Positions 24,938-34,035 of a stretch of DNA of 64,000 nt are shown in pieces. Source of the stretch: Methanosarcina vacuolata Z-761. GTDB taxonomy: Archaea > Halobacteriota > Methanosarcinia > Methanosarcinales > Methanosarcinaceae. The stretch lies in NCBI RefSeq assembly GCF_000969905.1, contig NZ_CP009520.1, positions 2,418,001 to 2,482,000 on the forward strand. Direction: 5' to 3'. The notes below the pieces were generated by a model. The model worked only from the letters and a program-made list of their open reading frames with translations, searched no databases and had not been told where the DNA came from. The position numbers and the translations under genes are program-made. The number at the start of each line of letters is the position of its first letter. Within the stretch, counting starts at the first letter, position 1.

Positions 24938-25034
24938 ATCATCTGAATTTCAAAAAATTTTTTGAGTTTCCTGCAAAAAAGTTTGAATAATGTCAAATCT
25001 GAATTATAATATCCGCAAACGTTATCGATCCAGC

Positions 25035-25122
25035 ATCTGGCTTTGAACTGTATCATATCTGGCTTTGAACTGTATCATATCTGGCTTTGAACTGTATCAT
25101 ATCTGGCTTTGAACTGTATCAT
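25035..25122. repeat. 22-bp tandem repeat, four perfect copies
   Basis: Four identical consecutive copies of a 22-bp unit (atctggctttgaactgtatc plus at). A shorter duplicated motif (tctcgatacagaa) follows. There are no spacers, so this is not a CRISPR array. It lies downstream of the DUF6325 gene. Confidence 0.95.
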
Positions 25123-25188
25123 TGGTCTCGATACAGAATACTTTCTCGATACAGAACACTTAATGCTTAAATTTGAGCAGGCAGCCTT

Positions 25189-25749
25189 TCAAAACGCAGC
25201 TGCTGCCTGAGGCCCCTTTTTCTTTTTCTCTGCAAATTTAACCGCTTCTGTCAGTTCTTCTCCTACTGCAACGAGCAGCTCAGGTGTGAGCATACCCTGA
25301 GAGACCAGTACTCCTCCTGCATCTCTTATTGCCTGTTTCAGGCTTTTTGCCCATAGGTGTTCGATAATAAGAATAGCAGCGGCGGTACCTTCAGGTATAG
25401 CCTCGGTTATCTCCAGAATATCTTCTTCAGTGATTCCATAATTCTCCTGGGCTGCTGCCAGGATTCCTGCCTCTGTGCCTCCTATAGCTCCTTCTTCACC
25501 GCCAGCCCCATACCCTATAAGTCCCCCAACGACAGCACCAAAATGCATTCTTTCCTCTTCATCCAGTTGTGTAGCCTCAAGAGACTTGATGTTACCAGCT
25601 TCGTCTTTCCATATGAACAGCAAATCAATAAGCCTGACCATCCCTTTATTCATGACTGATTCAAGTTCACGGCGGATCTGGCCGTGGAAGTTCGGATTGT
25701 CGAATACTATGACTAAAAGCTGCATTGGTCCATACATTACTTCATCCAT
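25189..25749 (-). CDS. DUF6325/DUF1269-type protein
   Basis: The 186-aa protein starts with YGPMQLLVIVFDNPNFHGQI. It has a Gly/Ala-rich central segment (GAVVGGLIGYGAGGEEGAIGG) and ends KKKKGPQAAAAF. This pattern of a strand-rich N-terminus with a glycine-rich hydrophobic stretch is seen in DUF1269/DUF6325 proteins of unknown, possibly membrane-associated, function. It has its own promoter region and lies upstream of the 22-bp repeats. Confidence 0.75.
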   Translation of the reverse strand: MDEVMYGPMQLLVIVFDNPNFHGQIRRELESVMNKGMVRLIDLLFIWKDEAGNIKSLEATQLDEEERMHFGAVVGGLIGYGAGGEEGAIGGTEAGILAAAQENYGITEEDILEITEAIPEGTAAAILIIEHLWAKSLKQAIRDAGGVLVSQGMLTPELLVAVGEELTEAVKFAEKKKKGPQAAAAF

Positions 25750-26078
25750 TTATTTACTCCCCCATTTGAAATTCTTTCCAGTTCTGCTGTCCCGTTTCTG
25801 TTGTGCTGTTTTTCACGGATAACTGGTGGTCACATTAATGAGCTATGAAATCTCGTACAATTCCTGTAGTCTTCTTCCCCCTCTGTCAGGAACTCTACAA
25901 TCAAAAAACAATCACAGCAGTATTAACACAAAAGATGTATAAAATTTAAAATATATATAAACGAGCATATATAAAATTCAGGTTAAGATTACGAGTGAAC
26001 AGGCAAAAAATATAGGCGGATTTTATTGTATATTTACAAAACCGATAGCTTCCGAGTATCTCTTCATCGGTCCAGATT

Positions 26079-27167
26079 TTAGTTTTCTTCTTCCTGCCCT
26101 GCACTTTCCTTAGCCTCTGCTTCATTTCCTACTGGGCCCATCAATCTGGCAAGCCATCTGGTTTCCTCAAAACTCTCCAGGATAATCTTCAAAACCATGG
26201 TAAGAGGCGTGGCAAGCAGCATTCCTGTAGCTCCAAGCACATAATTCCAGTAGAGAAGGGACAAAAATACAATAGCTGGAGATAGTTTCAGGCCTTTTCC
26301 TGCGAGTGAAGGAAATATTACGTTTTCAGTGAGTGCATTGACTATCGAGATAGCAATAATAACAGCCAGAGCTCCTATAAGCCCATACTGGATTAGCCCG
26401 AAGAACGCGGGTGGAATTGTAGTTAGAGCCAGGCCTATATATGGAATATAACCAAGAAAAAATGCCATGACACCCCAGAAAACCGCAAAGTCGATACCTC
26501 CTATAAGGAGAATAACCGTAATTCCGATGGCCGTAACAAGATTTACCTCTGTTCTTATAACAATAAATTCTATCAGACCCTTACCAAATTTATTCAGACG
26601 TGATTCGAATACGAGCTGTTCTTCAGCTTTTTGTTCTGTTTTTTCCTGAGCTCCGGCAGCGCCCAGCAACAAAAATGCTGCTGTGACTATGATTATTCCA
26701 ACCGTTGTCCCGGCATTTATGAGTCCGTTAAGGACGCTTACCATAAGGCTGACTGCAAGTGATGCAATACCACGAAAAACGGACTGCAGGGATAGGTCTT
26801 CGGTGGATGGAAGATACGGTAAAAGTTCGTCCAGGATCTCTATCAACTGACTCTGATAGTTTGGAAGTTGGTTTCCAATCTGGATTGCAGCACCTACAAT
26901 CACTGCCCCGAAAACCGAGATAAATAGAGTTAATAACAAAATTACCAGAAGCACGCTCAGTACTCCGGGAATGCCTTTTCGCTTGACCCAGCGGACAGGT
27001 GGGGTAAGTATCAGTGCGACGAAGATAGAGAAAAATACGGTTGTGAGTATCGGAGATATTTCCTTCATTCCTATTGTCAGGATAACAGCAAAAGTACTGT
27101 ACACTAAAATCTCAGCAGGTACCGAGATTCTATTTATTTTCATATTTTGCAATTCCCCCCATGTCAT
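26079..27167 (-). CDS. AI-2E/UPF0118 family transporter
   Basis: The 362-aa protein has about eight membrane helices in the PerM/UPF0118 arrangement. An N-terminal helix pair is followed by a long amphipathic region (NQLPNYQSQLIEILDELLPYLP). The C-terminal block has GYIPYIGLALTTIPPAFFGL and PSLAGKGLKLSPAIVFLSLL. Family members export small molecules or ions, and the AI-2 name does not fix the substrate. Translation may start at MTWGEL or at the internal MKINRI eight codons later. Confidence 0.88.
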   Translation of the reverse strand: MTWGELQNMKINRISVPAEILVYSTFAVILTIGMKEISPILTTVFFSIFVALILTPPVRWVKRKGIPGVLSVLLVILLLTLFISVFGAVIVGAAIQIGNQLPNYQSQLIEILDELLPYLPSTEDLSLQSVFRGIASLAVSLMVSVLNGLINAGTTVGIIIVTAAFLLLGAAGAQEKTEQKAEEQLVFESRLNKFGKGLIEFIVIRTEVNLVTAIGITVILLIGGIDFAVFWGVMAFFLGYIPYIGLALTTIPPAFFGLIQYGLIGALAVIIAISIVNALTENVIFPSLAGKGLKLSPAIVFLSLLYWNYVLGATGMLLATPLTMVLKIILESFEETRWLARLMGPVGNEAEAKESAGQEEEN

Positions 27168-27855
27168 TTTACAGTAAGCTGATTTTTTATTTCATAACCC
27201 GTTAACACAGGTTGATTGATTAACGCCTCCAGATAAATATTGTATCCGATAATCTTTATAGAATAGGGGAAGATTATCTGGTTAGCTTTCCAACCCCTGA
27301 AACCATAATAACACTCGAACCTTCTCCCAAATCTAGTTCAAACTAATGGCTCTTCGAATCATCCCACACCTGTTTTCATGAGCAAATAGATGTAAAACAA
27401 TATATATTCAAATTGATTTATAATATCTTGCATTTTTATGAGCTTAAGATATCGTTGTGAATTTTAAGGAAGACTATGTATTAAATCGCGGAGTATTGCC
27501 ATAATACGCCACCTTTTGCCCGCAAAATTTTGAATTTCCAGTTTAAAGTATTTTCCATGAAATAGCTTTCCTGTAAATTCGGTAATATTTTCTGAGATTT
27601 ATCCTGGATTTATGAGCCTGAAGATGTCCTGTATGGAGTTATCGGCCAGAAATTCGAGAAAGTTTTCCTTACTTACACCGAGTTCTTTTAAATTCAGCAT
27701 GGTTCTTCACATCTCTTGCTATAGTTTCCTTCCCATAGGCAACTGCTTCACACAAGTGTTTCAAAATAAGTTCTAAAATTAAAAACATTCGATTAACTGC
27801 GAATATTTTTTGAAACCAATTAATATAAAATATATATTATATATATAACCATATT
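27168..27855. other. intergenic spacer with a possible coding relic
   Basis: About 690 bp of AT-rich sequence. On the minus strand, 27599-27700 encodes a 33-aa frame (MLNLKELGVSKENFLEFLAD). Immediately upstream in another frame is KHLCEAVAYGKETIARDVKN. Together they look like a short, frameshifted remnant of a helical protein, which I cannot identify. The rest holds the promoter of the DUF389 gene, with a tatatata run near 27829-27848. Confidence 0.4.
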
Positions 27856-29148
27856 ATGCGTCTTGTTCAGGTACTCATTCCAGTGGGTAAGCGACAGCCT
27901 GTGCTCGCCGTGCTAGATGACGAAGGGATAGACTATGCCGTATGGGACGAAACAGGCAGAAAGGACTTTGAAGCCCTTGTCCAGTTTCCAATTCCTCCTG
28001 TTGGTGTGGAACCAGTACTTACCAGATTGCGCAAGGCTGGAATTAGCGAAAATACCTATACTATCGTCCTGACACCTGAAACTATAGTATCAAGACGCAT
28101 TGAAGTTCTAAAGCAGCGCTACTCTGGAACCCGTATCTCGCGAGAAGAATTGATTGCACGTGCAGAGAACCTTGCACCTGAAACTTCTACTTATCTTGCG
28201 TTTCTTGTTCTGAGCACGATTATTGCAACTGGAGGACTCTTGCTTGATTCGGCTGCAACAATCATCGGAGCAATGGTCGTGGCTCCCCTTATGGGGCCTG
28301 CAATTTCTGCAAGTGTAGGCACTGTGCTTGACGACAGAAAACTTGCGTCTCGAGGAATTAAGATGCAGATTGGAGGGCTTCTGCTCGCAATTGCAGTGGG
28401 TGCCCTTATCGGCATACTTCTTAAAGAATCGATACTTTTGCCACCTGGCCTTGATATCCGAGAAATATCCCAGATAGCCGAGAGGACCAGCCCTAATTTC
28501 CTTTCTCTTTTCCTTGCTCTGGGATCGGGTATAGCAGGAGCTATCAGTATTATCCGGAATGCAGGGTCTGCCCTTGTGGGTGTTGCGATTGCAATCGCTC
28601 TCGTTCCACCAGCTGCAACGGCAGGGTTGGGACTCGCATGGGGGCTACCCTTAGTAGCAATTACAGCTGCCGTGCTCGTGCTTGTTAACCTGCTTGCTGT
28701 CAACGTGTCAGCCCTCATAATGTTCTGGGTTTCCGGTTTTCGTCCGGTAGAGAAAGAAGCAGTTGTACATGCCCGTTCTTCTGTGATCTCGCATGTAGCT
28801 TTACTTGTCATTGCAATTGCCTCACTCTCTGTAGCTCTTGGGCTTGTTACCTATTCTTCTTTTCAGACATCTCTTGTTGAACAGGAGATTAACGGAGAAA
28901 TGATAGCTATGTTCAAAGATCCCGAATATGCAGAAAAGGATTTGACACTTGAAAAAGTTACAGTCGGCTATATGCCTTTAGATTTCTTGTTAAAAAAACC
29001 TGTAAAAGTATCCCTCCTGATAGGCCGCAAAGTAGGTCAGGAAGTCCCTCCAGATATGGCCAGTAAAGCTGCTTACCGCCTGACAGAAGCTACAGGTAAA
29101 GATGTCAGAATTAATATTGGCTTTGTAGAGTCACAGAAATTCCCGTAA
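27856..29148 (+). CDS. DUF389/TIGR00341 family membrane protein
   Basis: The 430-aa protein has an N-terminal soluble domain (residues 1-100; MRLVQVLIPVGKRQPVLAVL). About six membrane helices follow, with AATIIGAMVVAPLMGPAISAS and IRNAGSALVGVAIAIALVPP, which are hallmark DUF389 motifs. A C-terminal soluble tail completes it. It is an integral membrane protein of unknown function, proposed as a transporter by its helix pattern. Its last 38 bp overlap the convergent cas1 relic. Confidence 0.88.
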   Translation: MRLVQVLIPVGKRQPVLAVLDDEGIDYAVWDETGRKDFEALVQFPIPPVGVEPVLTRLRKAGISENTYTIVLTPETIVSRRIEVLKQRYSGTRISREELIARAENLAPETSTYLAFLVLSTIIATGGLLLDSAATIIGAMVVAPLMGPAISASVGTVLDDRKLASRGIKMQIGGLLLAIAVGALIGILLKESILLPPGLDIREISQIAERTSPNFLSLFLALGSGIAGAISIIRNAGSALVGVAIAIALVPPAATAGLGLAWGLPLVAITAAVLVLVNLLAVNVSALIMFWVSGFRPVEKEAVVHARSSVISHVALLVIAIASLSVALGLVTYSSFQTSLVEQEINGEMIAMFKDPEYAEKDLTLEKVTVGYMPLDFLLKKPVKVSLLIGRKVGQEVPPDMASKAAYRLTEATGKDVRINIGFVESQKFP

Positions 29149-29494
29149 GTGCTCCATTAAGAATCTTCTGCCTCATATCATAAGAATCAATTCTCTCAAT
29201 CTCATATTCAGGCTTAATAAAATCCAGTTTTTCCTTTTTGCTCGTAAGATTATGGGCTAGTTCTCTTACCTTCAGGAAGATAACATAGCTCCAGATGCTT
29301 TCTTTTCCCCGGTAACTTACTTTTTTGTTCAGCATATTGGAAAATTCATTAACAACCTTCCTGGATCCTGTAGGCTTTAATCCAGGATTATGATTTTCTG
29401 TCCTGATAAAGTCCTTACCTTCCATAGCCCCACTTTCAACCAGGCCAATAACCACCGGATCAACAAGGAGCCCGAAAGGCTCCAAAAGGGTCAT
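29111..29494 (-). pseudogene. cas1: cas1 C-terminal fragment (CRISPR integrase relic)
   Basis: The 127-aa frame aligns by eye with the C-terminal third of Cas1. Matching segments are LLEPFGLLVDPVVIGLVESG, KDFIRTENHNPGLKP, LNKKVSYRGKESIWSYVIFL, LDFIKPEYEIERIDSYDMRQ and KILN. The N-terminal two thirds and the final 20-30 residues are missing. The C-terminus runs into the end of the DUF389 gene. No cas2, other cas gene or repeat-spacer array is present nearby. It is therefore a relic of a lost CRISPR adaptation module. Confidence 0.75.
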
Positions 29495-29603
29495 AATGCT
29501 AAGCTGTTATATTGTGTCGTTTCCGTTCAAAAGAGGAAGCTTCATTAGAAATCAACCTCCTTTTTTTCTTTGAGAATTTTACGCAATAAACAATGGCGAT
29601 AAC

Positions 29604-30152
29604 ATGAACTATAGCAAAATGACAAAGGACGATTTTGACAGAATTCTTTACACACGTCTTAATGAGGAAAATCTTCAGTCAATAGTTAATATTCCGGGTG
29701 TTTCTGAAATAGTATCCAGGCATTTCAATAACGATACACTTCTTAACGAGGAAACTCTTCAATCAATAATTAATATTCCAGGCGTTTATGAAATAGTGTC
29801 CAGCCATTTCAATAATGATATACTTGAAGCGTGGGAATATGAGCAGTATATAAAGGTTAAAGATATTGTAGAAAGAATCGAGTTGTGGAATCCAGAATTC
29901 CAGCGAACCATAGTATTGTTAAATTTACTGAACAAATTAACTGAAATTCTTTACGATACCCTGGATCTAAAACTGGACAAATATGTTAACCTTCGAGCAC
30001 TTCCGGTCAGGGAGTTCCACAAAGAAACTGTGGACAAATATTCAGCATATCCTATCTGGACATGCGATTTTGAAGGGTCCTGTCTTGTTGGCGCTGAGAA
30101 GTTTGAAATCGAACCTATCGATTTAATTCTTCACCGCTTTGGGGATGATTAA
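29604..30152 (+). CDS. hypothetical protein with an internal 28-residue duplication
   Basis: The 182-aa protein contains two near-identical consecutive units, LNEENLQSIVNIPGVSEIVS then RHFNNDTL, and LNEETLQSIINIPGVYEIVS then SHFNNDIL (about residues 18-45 and 46-75). An unrelated C-terminal half follows (about 85-182, ending in EPIDLILHRFGDD). No signal peptide or membrane helix is visible, and no family is recognised. The duplication is also clear at DNA level, so it is fairly recent. Confidence 0.65.
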   Translation: MNYSKMTKDDFDRILYTRLNEENLQSIVNIPGVSEIVSRHFNNDTLLNEETLQSIINIPGVYEIVSSHFNNDILEAWEYEQYIKVKDIVERIELWNPEFQRTIVLLNLLNKLTEILYDTLDLKLDKYVNLRALPVREFHKETVDKYSAYPIWTCDFEGSCLVGAEKFEIEPIDLILHRFGDD

Positions 30153-30164
30153 AGGGTCCTGTGT

Positions 30165-30297
30165 GAGCTGATCCCAAAACGCAAAATTGCTTCTCTGAAT
30201 ATCTTATTCTGGATTATCAATAAGAGCTTCTGACCCTGTAAAAATAATTCTGAAACTCTTATTGATGTGGGAATAAAATTGGTTTTGGGATGAGCTC
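30165..30297. repeat. 133-bp MITE-like element
   Basis: Inverted ends gagctgatcccaaaac (30165-30180) and gttttgggatgagctc (30282-30297) match in 15 of 16 positions. The right 48 bp recur at 18788-18834. Non-coding, just after the duplicated-motif gene. Confidence 0.8.
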
Positions 30298-30760
30298 CGT
30301 GAGAAAGTACCCCATTGATTCTCGATTAAGGAGTTTTCTTGCCTGAAGCTATCGATTTTGCATTAGAAGCTGGCCTTAAATTTTGGCATATTTACATGAA
30401 ATCAATACCATGTTCCACCTCACAATCTATTGCAACATTTTACAAACGTTCTGGAACTGAAGACAATTTATCACTATTCCTCACTTAACCGAAAACGCTT
30501 GAATATACCCGAATTTCAAAATAAATTCCCGGATACAACAGTGAGGGTTAGTCGTGAAGATTAGTCGTGAAAGTTAGTCGTGAAGGTTAGTCATGAAAAC
30601 ATTCATGGAGCTTGACACTAAGAAAAAGAAGAAAGAAAACAGTCCTTGGAAGCATTTGTGCCGAAGATATTTACAAAGGAAAAAAGCAAGAAAAGCTTAT
30701 TGGCCGGAGAAAGCAGAAAACCTGTCCTGATGCCGGGTTTTTAGCCTAAATTTTGCTTTC
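30298..30760. other. spacer with a short frame and a 13-bp repeat
   Basis: A TTG-initiated 49-codon frame (from about 30340, reading LPEAIDFALEAGLKFWHIYM) follows a GGAG and may be a gene relic. About four copies of ttagtcgtgaaRR follow at 30548-30597. Nothing else is recognised. Confidence 0.4.
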
Positions 30761-32125
30761 TCAGGCCTTGTCTTCATGGCTTTTCCTTGCAACGCAACTT
30801 TCAAGTGATGCACCTGCAACAGCTTTTGCAACCGCAGGCACTACACGCTTGTCAAGAGGGTCAGGAATTATGTAATCTTCAGAAAGTTCACTGAGCGTTA
30901 CGACCTCCGAAAGAGCACGCGCCGCAGCTATTTCCATCTCAGGTGTTATTTTTCTCGCACAGGTGCTGAGAGCACCTTTGAAAACCCCAGGGAAGCTCAG
31001 GCAATTATTAAGCTGATTTGGAAAGTCCGACCTGCCCGTAGCAACAACCCTTGCTCCTGCCCGCTTTGCGGCATCAGGCATTATCTCAGGTAGAGGGTTT
31101 GCCATAGCCATTACAATTGCATCTTTTGCCATGGAACGAACCATTTCCTCACTGATTATCCCTCCCACGGAGACACCGATAAAAAGGTCAGCTCCCGGTA
31201 AAGCATTTTCAAGCCCCCCTTTCAATTTTCCATGATTTGTGAGCCTGGCAATTTCCTCTTTTACGGGGTTCATGCCGTTTTTCCGGCCTTCATACACGAG
31301 CCCTTTACTGTCGCAGACAAGAATTCTTGACGGATTTGCTCCTGCTCGAACCAGGAACCGGAAAATTGCTACTCCTGCCGCTCCCAGGCCTGAAATCACT
31401 ATACGGAGTTCATTTAACTTTTTATTCACAATTTTAAGAGCATTGAGAAGCCCGGCAAAAACTACAATGGCTGTCCCATGCTGGTCATCATGCATAACTG
31501 GCAGATCGAGTTCTTCGCGTAGCCGCTCCTCTATTTCAAAGCAACGAGGAGCACTGATGTCTTCAAGGTTAATACCTCCGAATGCAGGAGCCAGATGCTT
31601 TACCGCTTTTATCACTTCTTCGGTTTCCTGTGTGTCAAGGCAAATTGGAAAGGCATCAATGCCTGCAAATTCTTTGAAAATTATTGCCTTTCCTTCCATA
31701 ACAGGCAGCGCAGCATAAGGTCCTATATTCCCAAGCCCCAGAACTGCCGATCCATCAGTGATAACAGCAATAGTATTTCTCTTCAGGGTATAGAGGTAGG
31801 CAAGTTCAGGGTCCTTGACTATCTTCCTGCACGGCTCGGCAACTCCTGGTGTATAGGCGACGCTGAGGTCGTGTATCGTTTGAAGGCTAACTTTACTGGC
31901 AACCTCCAGTACGCCCCCAAGCCGTCGGTGCACGGCAAGTGATTCCTGATATAAGGATGTGTGTGGATCAGTGCCTTTTTCCTGGTACTTTTCCAGATCC
32001 TTCCCTGAATCCTTTTCCAGAGTTTTTTCGGAATTTTTTTCCAGATCTTTTCCGGAGTTCTTTTTCAGATCAGTTTCCAGCTCTGAGTCTGAGTGCATAT
32101 TTTTAATCGCAGTACCCCCTGACAA
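30761..32125 (-). CDS. malic enzyme (oxaloacetate-decarboxylating, NAD(P)-dependent)
   Basis: The 454-aa protein has the malic enzyme blocks AYTPGVAEPCRKI, LGLGNIGPYAALPVMEGKAI, FKEFAGIDAFPICLDT and MHDDQHGTAIVVFAGLLNAL. It also has a Rossmann motif GLGAAGVAIFRFL. It converts malate to pyruvate plus CO2 with reduction of NAD(P). The catalytic domain starts near residue 50. The first 45 residues are a Lys/Asp/Glu-rich repeat (KDLEKNSEKTLEKDSGKDLE) that other malic enzymes lack. That repeat looks like an expanded DNA repeat read in frame. Monocistronic. Confidence 0.92.
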   Translation of the reverse strand: MSGGTAIKNMHSDSELETDLKKNSGKDLEKNSEKTLEKDSGKDLEKYQEKGTDPHTSLYQESLAVHRRLGGVLEVASKVSLQTIHDLSVAYTPGVAEPCRKIVKDPELAYLYTLKRNTIAVITDGSAVLGLGNIGPYAALPVMEGKAIIFKEFAGIDAFPICLDTQETEEVIKAVKHLAPAFGGINLEDISAPRCFEIEERLREELDLPVMHDDQHGTAIVVFAGLLNALKIVNKKLNELRIVISGLGAAGVAIFRFLVRAGANPSRILVCDSKGLVYEGRKNGMNPVKEEIARLTNHGKLKGGLENALPGADLFIGVSVGGIISEEMVRSMAKDAIVMAMANPLPEIMPDAAKRAGARVVATGRSDFPNQLNNCLSFPGVFKGALSTCARKITPEMEIAAARALSEVVTLSELSEDYIIPDPLDKRVVPAVAKAVAGASLESCVARKSHEDKA

Positions 32126-32485
32126 TACTTAATATTGTAGCAAAGCCTTAACGCGACTGAATTCCAAGAATTAAAACTTCCATATAATTTTAAAGTTATT
32201 AGCACAGCCTTAGTCCATTAAATTTTAAGAAATAAACTTTCCGGTGTAATAGTCTACGCAGGCCGTAGATAAACCCACTGGCTAGAATTATGAAACTGGT
32301 CCATTGAACCAACCGACTTTAACTCACCGACCTGAATTAACTGCCTTAATTCTATGTTTACTGGCAGTCTTTGCAATCCAGAAGATTCCCGACCGATTGA
32401 ATTGCGGAAAAACTCGGCTGGCGAGAATTAATGCACTCTATCATTACCGCAGAAAAGATATACTATTTAAGAAGAATAGTCCAGT

Positions 32486-32881
32486 ATGCAAATTAACGGA
32501 ATAGCTCGTGATACTCTTAATTTTATCCTGGAGGCTAGTAAGTCCATCGCTCCCCAGGAATTTGCCGGACTTTTGCAGGAAAAAGATGGCATCATCACTG
32601 AAGTTCTTATATTACCTGGCACGGAATCCAGTGATTCAAATGCCGTTCTCAGGCTCTATATGATGCCGAACATCAAAGCCGCAGGTTCAGTCCACAGCCA
32701 TCCAGGCCCGAACCGTAGCCCTTCACAGGCTGACCTGCTACTCTTTTCAAAAACAGGCAACTGCCATATCATAGTTGGCCGCCCGTATGATAGTCAAAGC
32801 TGGACATGCTATAACAGGGAAGGAGAAGTAATTGAGCTTCCCGTGCTTGATGTTGAATTTGATGACTATGAAGAGATTTGA
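32486..32881 (+). CDS. JAMM/MPN metalloprotease (Mov34/PAD-1 family)
   Basis: The 131-aa single-domain protein carries a complete JAMM zinc site: Glu25 (in EFAGLL), His70-x-His72, Ser80 and Asp83 in the H-S-H-P-x6-S-x2-D spacing. Archaeal stand-alone JAMM proteins remove ubiquitin-like SAMP modifiers from proteins or from sulfur-carrier precursors. The acidic C-terminus (EFDDYEEI) is unremarkable. It is divergent from malic enzyme, with a 360-bp shared promoter region. Confidence 0.88.
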   Translation: MQINGIARDTLNFILEASKSIAPQEFAGLLQEKDGIITEVLILPGTESSDSNAVLRLYMMPNIKAAGSVHSHPGPNRSPSQADLLLFSKTGNCHIIVGRPYDSQSWTCYNREGEVIELPVLDVEFDDYEEI

Positions 32882-33004
32882 CTCAAGAACCAGCTCGGAA
32901 AAACGCTCGTCCTCCATGAATAAATCATCACTTTTGGAAACGTTCATCCAGTCAGAGATACTTTTCTGCAAACACGGTCATTAACAAAAAAGTACGGTAT
33001 CCAT

Positions 33005-33210
33005 AGCTGTCAAGTAATATCAAATAAACGACAGGTAGCTAGCAAATAAACGATAGGTGGCCGGCAGATAGTCATTAAACAGTTACCAAATAATTAATAA
33101 ATATCTATCAAATAACCAACAAATGGCTGTCAAATGATCAATAAGTAGCTGCCAAATAATCAGCAAATAACTACAAAATAATCGCAAATAACCGGCAAAA
33201 GCTTTCAGGA
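33005..33210. repeat. degenerate caaataa-type repeats
   Basis: About 200 bp of loosely repeated caaataaYNaNcaaataRctg units (roughly 20-22 bp) downstream of the JAMM gene. Strongly drifted and non-coding. Confidence 0.65.
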
Positions 33211-33453
33211 GGGGGGTATAAATAACTTTAGTTAGTTATCTTAATTTTCCGGCTGTTGACCGGATGCAAATCCCTACCTTCATTCTGTTAGCCTACCAAA
33301 AATGTTTTATTTACAGATACATATTATTTAGAGGATACATCCGTACTTAAGGTATCTGAAAATAAGTGATATCTTGCTTCAGAGGTTGTATCCGGGCAAA
33401 CACTCTGGGACTAAGACCAGGTGGCCTTCATATAACTGGAGGTAGTAATCCGA

Positions 33454-33627
33454 ATGCCTACATGCCAAGATTGTAGATTTTATACGGCTATTGATGAGCT
33501 AAAAGGCGAATGTTTCAGCCTGGGTTTTGAAGTGCGCGGAAAAACCGATTCCAAGAAGTGCCCGGAACGGGCTTTCAGGCCAAACAAAGGCCCCAAATCC
33601 AGAAAATCCGGAGCGCATAATTACTGA
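33454..33627 (+). CDS. 57-aa four-cysteine protein
   Basis: A short gene with a good GGAGG 11 nt upstream of the ATG. The product, MPTCQDCRFYTAIDELKGEC and onward, has Cys4, Cys7, Cys20 and Cys36 and a basic C-terminus. The CxxC-x12-C-x15-C pattern resembles the small iron-sulfur subunits found with glycyl-radical enzymes, or a zinc-binding mini-protein. No partner gene is adjacent. The family is not firmly recognised. The clean start signal and cysteine spacing support a real gene. Confidence 0.65.
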   Translation: MPTCQDCRFYTAIDELKGECFSLGFEVRGKTDSKKCPERAFRPNKGPKSRKSGAHNY

Positions 33628-33844
33628 AAATGTGAAAAATAAAAGGCAGAAAAAGCTCAGAAGGAAGAAAGAGCTAGCTCAAAAAAGAGGTTTAAAATGT
33701 TAAAATGAATTGAAGCGAACCTCCAGCCCTAACATAAATTCCGGTGTACCTGAATAACTTACTTTTTGTTTGCCGGAATTAAACAAGCTTAAACGAAATA
33801 TCATTAAATTTTTTTGTTTTGTATCTATTTTTAGTACTATTATA

Positions 33845-34035
33845 ACTATTCAGCCCAGGAAAAACAACATCATTAACCTGATTTAACAGAATTCAAGGGG
33901 TAAATTTCAGAAAATATATTTTATTTGATTATTGGCTATTGATTGCGTTTTTTCAATCCTCAAGAGTTAGAATTCAGACATACCGATTTCATCAAAATCA
34001 ATATCGATCAATAAATTCCGGAAGGCTGAATAGTA
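33845..34035. repeat. MITE family B, copy 1
   Basis: A 191-bp element with exact 11-bp inverted ends (actattcagcc and ggctgaatagt). Its interior is related to the better preserved copy at 55638-55832; both share ggaaaaacaa near the left end and aaaatcaatatc near the right. Short gene-like scraps follow to 34200 but contain stops. Confidence 0.75.

Follow-up and report, generated by a model that had tools for sequence, protein, structure and literature searches.

The locus and its Cas1-like reading frame

The window analysed here, a 64-kb stretch of the Methanosarcina vacuolata Z-761 genome, contains on its minus strand an open reading frame (ORF) of 127 aa that opens with ATG (29111-29494) and lies between a DUF389 gene and a gene of 182 aa. 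The initial annotation had read it as the C-terminal relic of an orphan CRISPR cas1 gene overlapping DUF389. The features of the locus are as follows.

27856-29148, plus strand: intact DUF389 membrane protein gene (PF04087, E 3.6e-38; same-length homologue in G007).
29111-29155, minus strand: terminal residues of the reported ORF, not Cas1, antisense to the DUF389 3' end plus the first seven downstream bases (orthology with G039/G040).
29156-29571, minus strand: whole casposase relic, made up of the 5' end, a 676-bp internal deletion and the 3' part.
29156-29508, minus strand: casposase 3' part, codons about 239-356 (M. mazei-type), which keeps the E247 position and stops before the HTH (blastn edges against intact casposon loci, 6opm match, alignment).
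29509-29571, minus strand: casposase 5' end (blastn 29512-29571 against L036, 85%; same junction in six genomes).
29604-30152, plus strand: 182-aa gene without an assigned family that appears to travel with the relic; 12 of the 30 genomes of the genus have it at full length, and one more has only pieces of it.

The DUF389 gene is collinear with its orthologues until seven bases beyond its stop codon. This side of the locus is about 95% identical to the sister genomes G039 and G040 up to 29155, where the identity ends, and the relic begins at 29156. Given this exact left edge, the ORF ends in antisense DUF389 sequence, and a true gene overlap was rejected on the orthology boundary (29155/29156). 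The open frame does run into DUF389, as had been claimed, but by antisense read-through, with no gene fusion and with DUF389 left intact. Sister orthology restarts at 30680 (G040) or 30710 (G039), from a site that lies apart from DUF389 in those genomes; as it resumes from a separate place, the unit formed by the relic and the 182-aa gene sits at a rearrangement breakpoint. Two dispersed MITE-like repeats with many copies genus-wide were also observed (window 30164-30297 and about 30313-30504). No CRISPR-like repeat or array was found in the 64-kb window, which upholds the earlier remark that an array is lacking, and comparison of the three larger ORFs near the relic with Pfam revealed no cas protein.

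Affinity of the fragment with casposases

The similarity of the ORF to Cas1 is real. The NCBIfam model TIGR00287 matched it significantly, though under the curated cut-off of the model (E 1e-07, residues 9-88), as did Pfam Cas_Cas1, also under its cut-off (E 0.0045, residues 3-52), and a phmmer search matched it to PDB chain 6opm (E 2.1e-54, residues 3-113), which we take to be the crystallised M. mazei casposase. The Cas1-like share of the ORF is 29156-29494 only; 29111-29155 is not Cas1. The segment LDFIKPEYEIERIDSY, offered earlier as a Cas1 C-terminus, lies at the edge of or outside the generic profile match (residues 9-88), but does match the casposase stretch preceding the HTH domain. 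Passages of PMC6977970 likewise give 6opm as the casposase of Methanosarcina mazei. As the match to 6opm is strong and those to the generic Cas1 models are weak, the nearest family is that of the casposases, the integrases of casposons, which are jumping elements; these integrases are cousins of CRISPR Cas1. Generic Cas1 profiles match casposases as well, and the tempting misreading of such a match is corrected here.

In BLASTP comparisons the fragment was 81-85% identical to the casposases of L034, L035, L036 and L063 and to the truncated one of L037, 82% identical to a second relic within the M. vacuolata Z-761 genome, and 53-56% identical to a second casposase clade (L038-L040), and a tree placed it inside the casposases. 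An intact CRISPR Cas1 is encoded elsewhere in the genome (C2:743523-744386), which also contains 122 copies of a CRISPR repeat outside the window. This Cas1, which is about 24-27% identical to full-length casposases, gave no significant BLAST match to the fragment (E 8.0). A CRISPR cas1 origin was rejected on two grounds: the sequence is that of a casposase, and it does not significantly match the Cas1 of the resident CRISPR system. Full-length casposase ORFs were extracted by script from four of the seven loci tried (none from the other three), and matches at E 0.001 or better occurred in 18 of the 39 genomes searched, all of one genus. The fragment is thus, with high confidence, a dead piece of a casposon integrase gene (casposase, Cas1-solo) and not a CRISPR cas1 leftover.

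Casposon homology in the window falls into two blastn blocks, 29156-29508 and 29512-29571. The rest of the gene, which had been described as absent, is not quite so: the casposase 5' end survives at 29509-29571, with a ribosome-binding site (GGAGG, 29556-29560), a start codon at 29545 and 12 codons. After codons 1-12 and two bases of codon 13, the deletion junction (29509/29508) leads out of frame into codon 239, a loss of 676 bp by codon count from the alignments. The frame that opens with ATG at 29494 owes its origin to two more 1-bp insertions, at about 29488-29498, which also restore the casposase frame. Passages of PMC6977970 name E162, H232 and E247 as the casposase catalytic residues; the deletion removes E162 and H232, leaving only the E247 position. 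The HTH domain, the removal of which abolished casposase integration in vitro according to the same passages (PMC6977970), is also missing, as homology stops at 29156, before the HTH part. Compared with family-2 casposases, the relic nests among them by sequence, without the set of catalytic residues and without the C-terminal HTH. Since it is a dead derivative in which only the E247 position remains, it was filed as a pseudogene of the family and not as a casposase. Judged from its sequence, the 127-aa ORF would be an accidental open frame devoid of integrase activity, because E162, H232 and the HTH domain are gone. The description of the locus as a truncated, displaced Cas1-family relic was borne out.

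The TIR core was not found in the 64-kb window at up to 3 mismatches, and neither TIR nor TSD was found at the relic; a looser scan of 25000-34000 (6 mismatches) gave three weak TIR sites, without casposon-like flanks. As the relic has no TIR or TSD, its arrival within a complete casposon is our inference and not an observation. The M. mazei-type casposon polB had no match in the whole genome, in a search run without a positive control. When 18 casposase loci were scanned for the 19-base TIR core at up to 4 mismatches, it occurred twice or more in six, once in nine and not at all in three (L038, L040, L068); L035 has both casposon ends, with a shared 14-bp flank. Matches between casposons and 94 CRISPR spacers of 25-60 nt, drawn from part of the arrays (L071, L084, L086), were limited to 15-16 nt.

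A second decayed casposon, of 3.8 kb, was observed elsewhere in the M. vacuolata Z-761 genome (C2:1880101-1883887; L041 4102-7888). Each end carries a TIR core, one with 0 and the other with 2 mismatches, and the flanking 14-bp TSD is perfect; read on one strand, this duplication starts with CGCA, which passages of PMC6977970 give as the target motif in M. mazei. Inside lie the 3' part of a casposase gene, interrupted by a single in-frame stop, both halves of a split mrr gene, and a repeat of about 200 bp that is present twice.

The adjoining 182-aa gene

The 182-aa gene matched no Pfam or NCBIfam family above cut-off, and its fold, predicted without an alignment, had a mean pLDDT of 38.8 and was not used. 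Six of the 12 genomes with the full-length gene (M. vacuolata Z-761, G013, G043, G044, G007 and G041) carry the casposase 5' end upstream of it, with an identical deletion junction; in G041 the two are separated by a 1.6-kb insertion. The outer edge of the casposase fragment varies between these genomes, and those other than M. vacuolata Z-761 keep shorter pieces. The same deletion beside the same gene indicates that all six hold one old pseudogene, and this one diagnostic deletion points to an old casposon insertion. In the other six genomes, homology to the window starts 17 to 13 bases before the start codon of the 182-aa gene. Four of them (G008, G018, G039, G040) have a CRISPR repeat at -63 or -64, within 9 mismatches of 31 bases; in G012 the upstream repeat is degenerate (13 of 37), and no recognisable CRISPR repeat was found upstream of the gene in G006. 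No such repeat was found in the six relic-bearing loci (0/6).

The 182-aa gene is under purifying selection, with dN/dS of 0.17-0.26 in the six pairs tested. The relic evolves neutrally: against seven homologues, its private changes number 16 nonsynonymous (two of them in one codon near the frameshift, one of these two being scored as a stop only because changes were counted singly) and 2 synonymous, the nonsynonymous share under neutrality being 0.85. Selection on the relic frame was rejected, since 16:2 is as expected without selection. Upstream of the 182-aa gene, approximately 104 bp have diverged to the same extent as the third and fourfold positions within it (ten pairs).

By rpoB, M. 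vacuolata Z-761 is closest to G039 and G040 (93-94%), whereas in the 182-aa gene it shares 83-84% identity with these two and 90-93% with the other relic-bearing genomes. The tree of the 182-aa gene splits the relic and CRISPR-repeat contexts with a support of 1.000. Given this conflict between the two trees, horizontal transfer of the gene and the relic between Methanosarcina species is the simplest reading; as rpoB is a single marker, with G018 included by only 645 bases, the case for transfer depends on the disagreement of two gene trees.

Gene-sized intervals between CRISPR repeats were observed in several genomes. In G008 (L086), 56 repeats in a run are followed by an interval of 609 bp, taken up by the 182-aa gene, and then by a final repeat. 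In G012 (L084) the gene occupies an interval of 607 bp, with a degenerate repeat on one side and a better one on the other, and eight further intervals of 349-1298 bp separate repeats. The array trailer of M. vacuolata Z-761 (C2:732803-737455; L131, C2:728000-738000) has five intervals, of 1005, 444, 1518, 109 and 1242 bp. Some of the repeats counted are degenerate, with up to 12-13 mismatches of 37, and 338 kb of control strands gave 0 matches at 12. The longest ORF lies on the strand opposite to the repeats in four of the nine G012 intervals (one IS-like) and on the repeat strand in all four ORF-holding intervals of the M. vacuolata trailer. Pfam assigned the trailer ORFs to DUF7557/VapB-like (just under cut-off) and Fic, DUF1330 and GNAT, and methyltransferase; one trailer ORF has no Pfam family, and the intervals include an ORF of 124 aa. 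In G039 and G040 (L087/L088) and G018 (L085), a single repeat stands at -64/-63 of the 182-aa gene and no array was found in the locus; this repeat may be an array fossil or have a regulatory role.

It is conceivable, though doubtful, that the 182-aa gene is a mobile cassette moved by Cas1-family integrases, present as a 607-609-bp 'giant spacer' in some genomes and fused to the casposase gene in others, and that Methanosarcina array trailers, that of M. vacuolata Z-761 among them, are integron-like. If this were true, genes of like orientation (toxin-antitoxin, acetyltransferase, methyltransferase, prenyltransferase) would be stored in the trailers, separated by CRISPR repeats. The gene-sized intervals are accounted for at least as well by ordinary insertions into old array ends as by cassette capture. 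Among the papers listed in a literature search on genes between CRISPR repeats, none was relevant, and the intervals at array trailers merit separate study.

Origin of the relic and comparison with known casposons

Taken together, we propose that a casposon with an HTH-bearing Cas1, like those of family 2, once adjoined the ancestor of the 182-aa gene. An internal loss of 676 bp from the casposase gene of this element would have brought codons 13 and 239 together out of frame, and the remainder of the casposon would also have disappeared; the junctions are visible in the sequence, and the order of events is our reconstruction. The dead fragment may then have stayed attached to the 182-aa gene, itself under purifying selection, and the conflict between trees suggests that the two spread together among several Methanosarcina species, by vertical inheritance as well as by horizontal transfer. 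In M. vacuolata Z-761, the pair lies at a rearrangement breakpoint directly after DUF389, with the casposase cut before its HTH. An old casposase pseudogene, transferred with the 182-aa gene, is the best explanation of the locus (probability roughly 0.93). Counting against it, 110 casposase codons still lack a stop; fewer than one stop is expected for 18 changes at a 3.8% share.

The generic Cas1 profile match, and the CRISPR repeats that adjoin the 182-aa gene in other genomes, could be taken to favour a remnant of a lost CRISPR-Cas adaptation module (a cas1 of type I or III), as the initial annotation had proposed. However, the fragment nests among casposases in sequence and finds no significant counterpart in the genome's own CRISPR Cas1, and not one of the six relic-bearing loci has a CRISPR repeat, so that such an origin is extremely improbable. 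It is also very unlikely, though a little less so, that the fragment was kept as a small functional protein, a domesticated C-terminal part of the casposase. The 127-aa frame with its ATG would suit this idea, but purifying selection is not seen in the private changes, the C-terminus comes from sequence antisense to DUF389, and in the other relic-bearing genomes the pieces are shorter and have different outer edges.

Better placed than either, yet still unlikely, is the suggestion that the casposase 5' region (29509-29603) was kept because it had been co-opted as the promoter region of the 182-aa gene. Five relic-bearing genomes do have upstream sequence in common up to about -105, but this region changes as fast as third and fourfold codon positions do, and in G041 the 1.6-kb insertion parts it from the gene. 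A conserved promoter was rejected, since the divergence equals that of third and fourfold positions. The old casposase pseudogene is an ordinary but well-resolved casposon relic, and the evidence does not support the loss of a CRISPR adaptation locus. Before a lost CRISPR locus is inferred from an orphan Cas1 fragment in a methanogen, the fragment should be compared with casposases.

In the parts consulted of the literature on Methanosarcina casposons, their remnants and degraded Cas1-solo genes (including PMC10359463, PMC6977970 and PMC4046053), we found no mention of this relic, and we make no claim of a first report. The genome's own CRISPR Cas1 (C2:743523-744386) belongs to the same superfamily as the relic but has no significant BLAST match to it. 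The M. mazei casposase (6opm; casposon family 2) is the same gene by sequence (E 2.1e-54 over residues 3-113), and the relic has the same start region and upstream ribosome-binding site. The relic differs in its internal 676-bp deletion and frameshift, in the loss of E162, H232 and the HTH domain, and in having no TIR or TSD at this copy. Decayed casposons are known: passages of PMC4046053 describe MetBur-C3, which has amber mutations, and a second M. psychrophilus element without recognisable TIRs. The relic resembles these in that they too are inactivated by mutation or without recognisable TIRs. Whereas the elements in those passages adjoin other casposons, the relic is a solitary gene fragment on an unrelated gene, common to genomes of several species.
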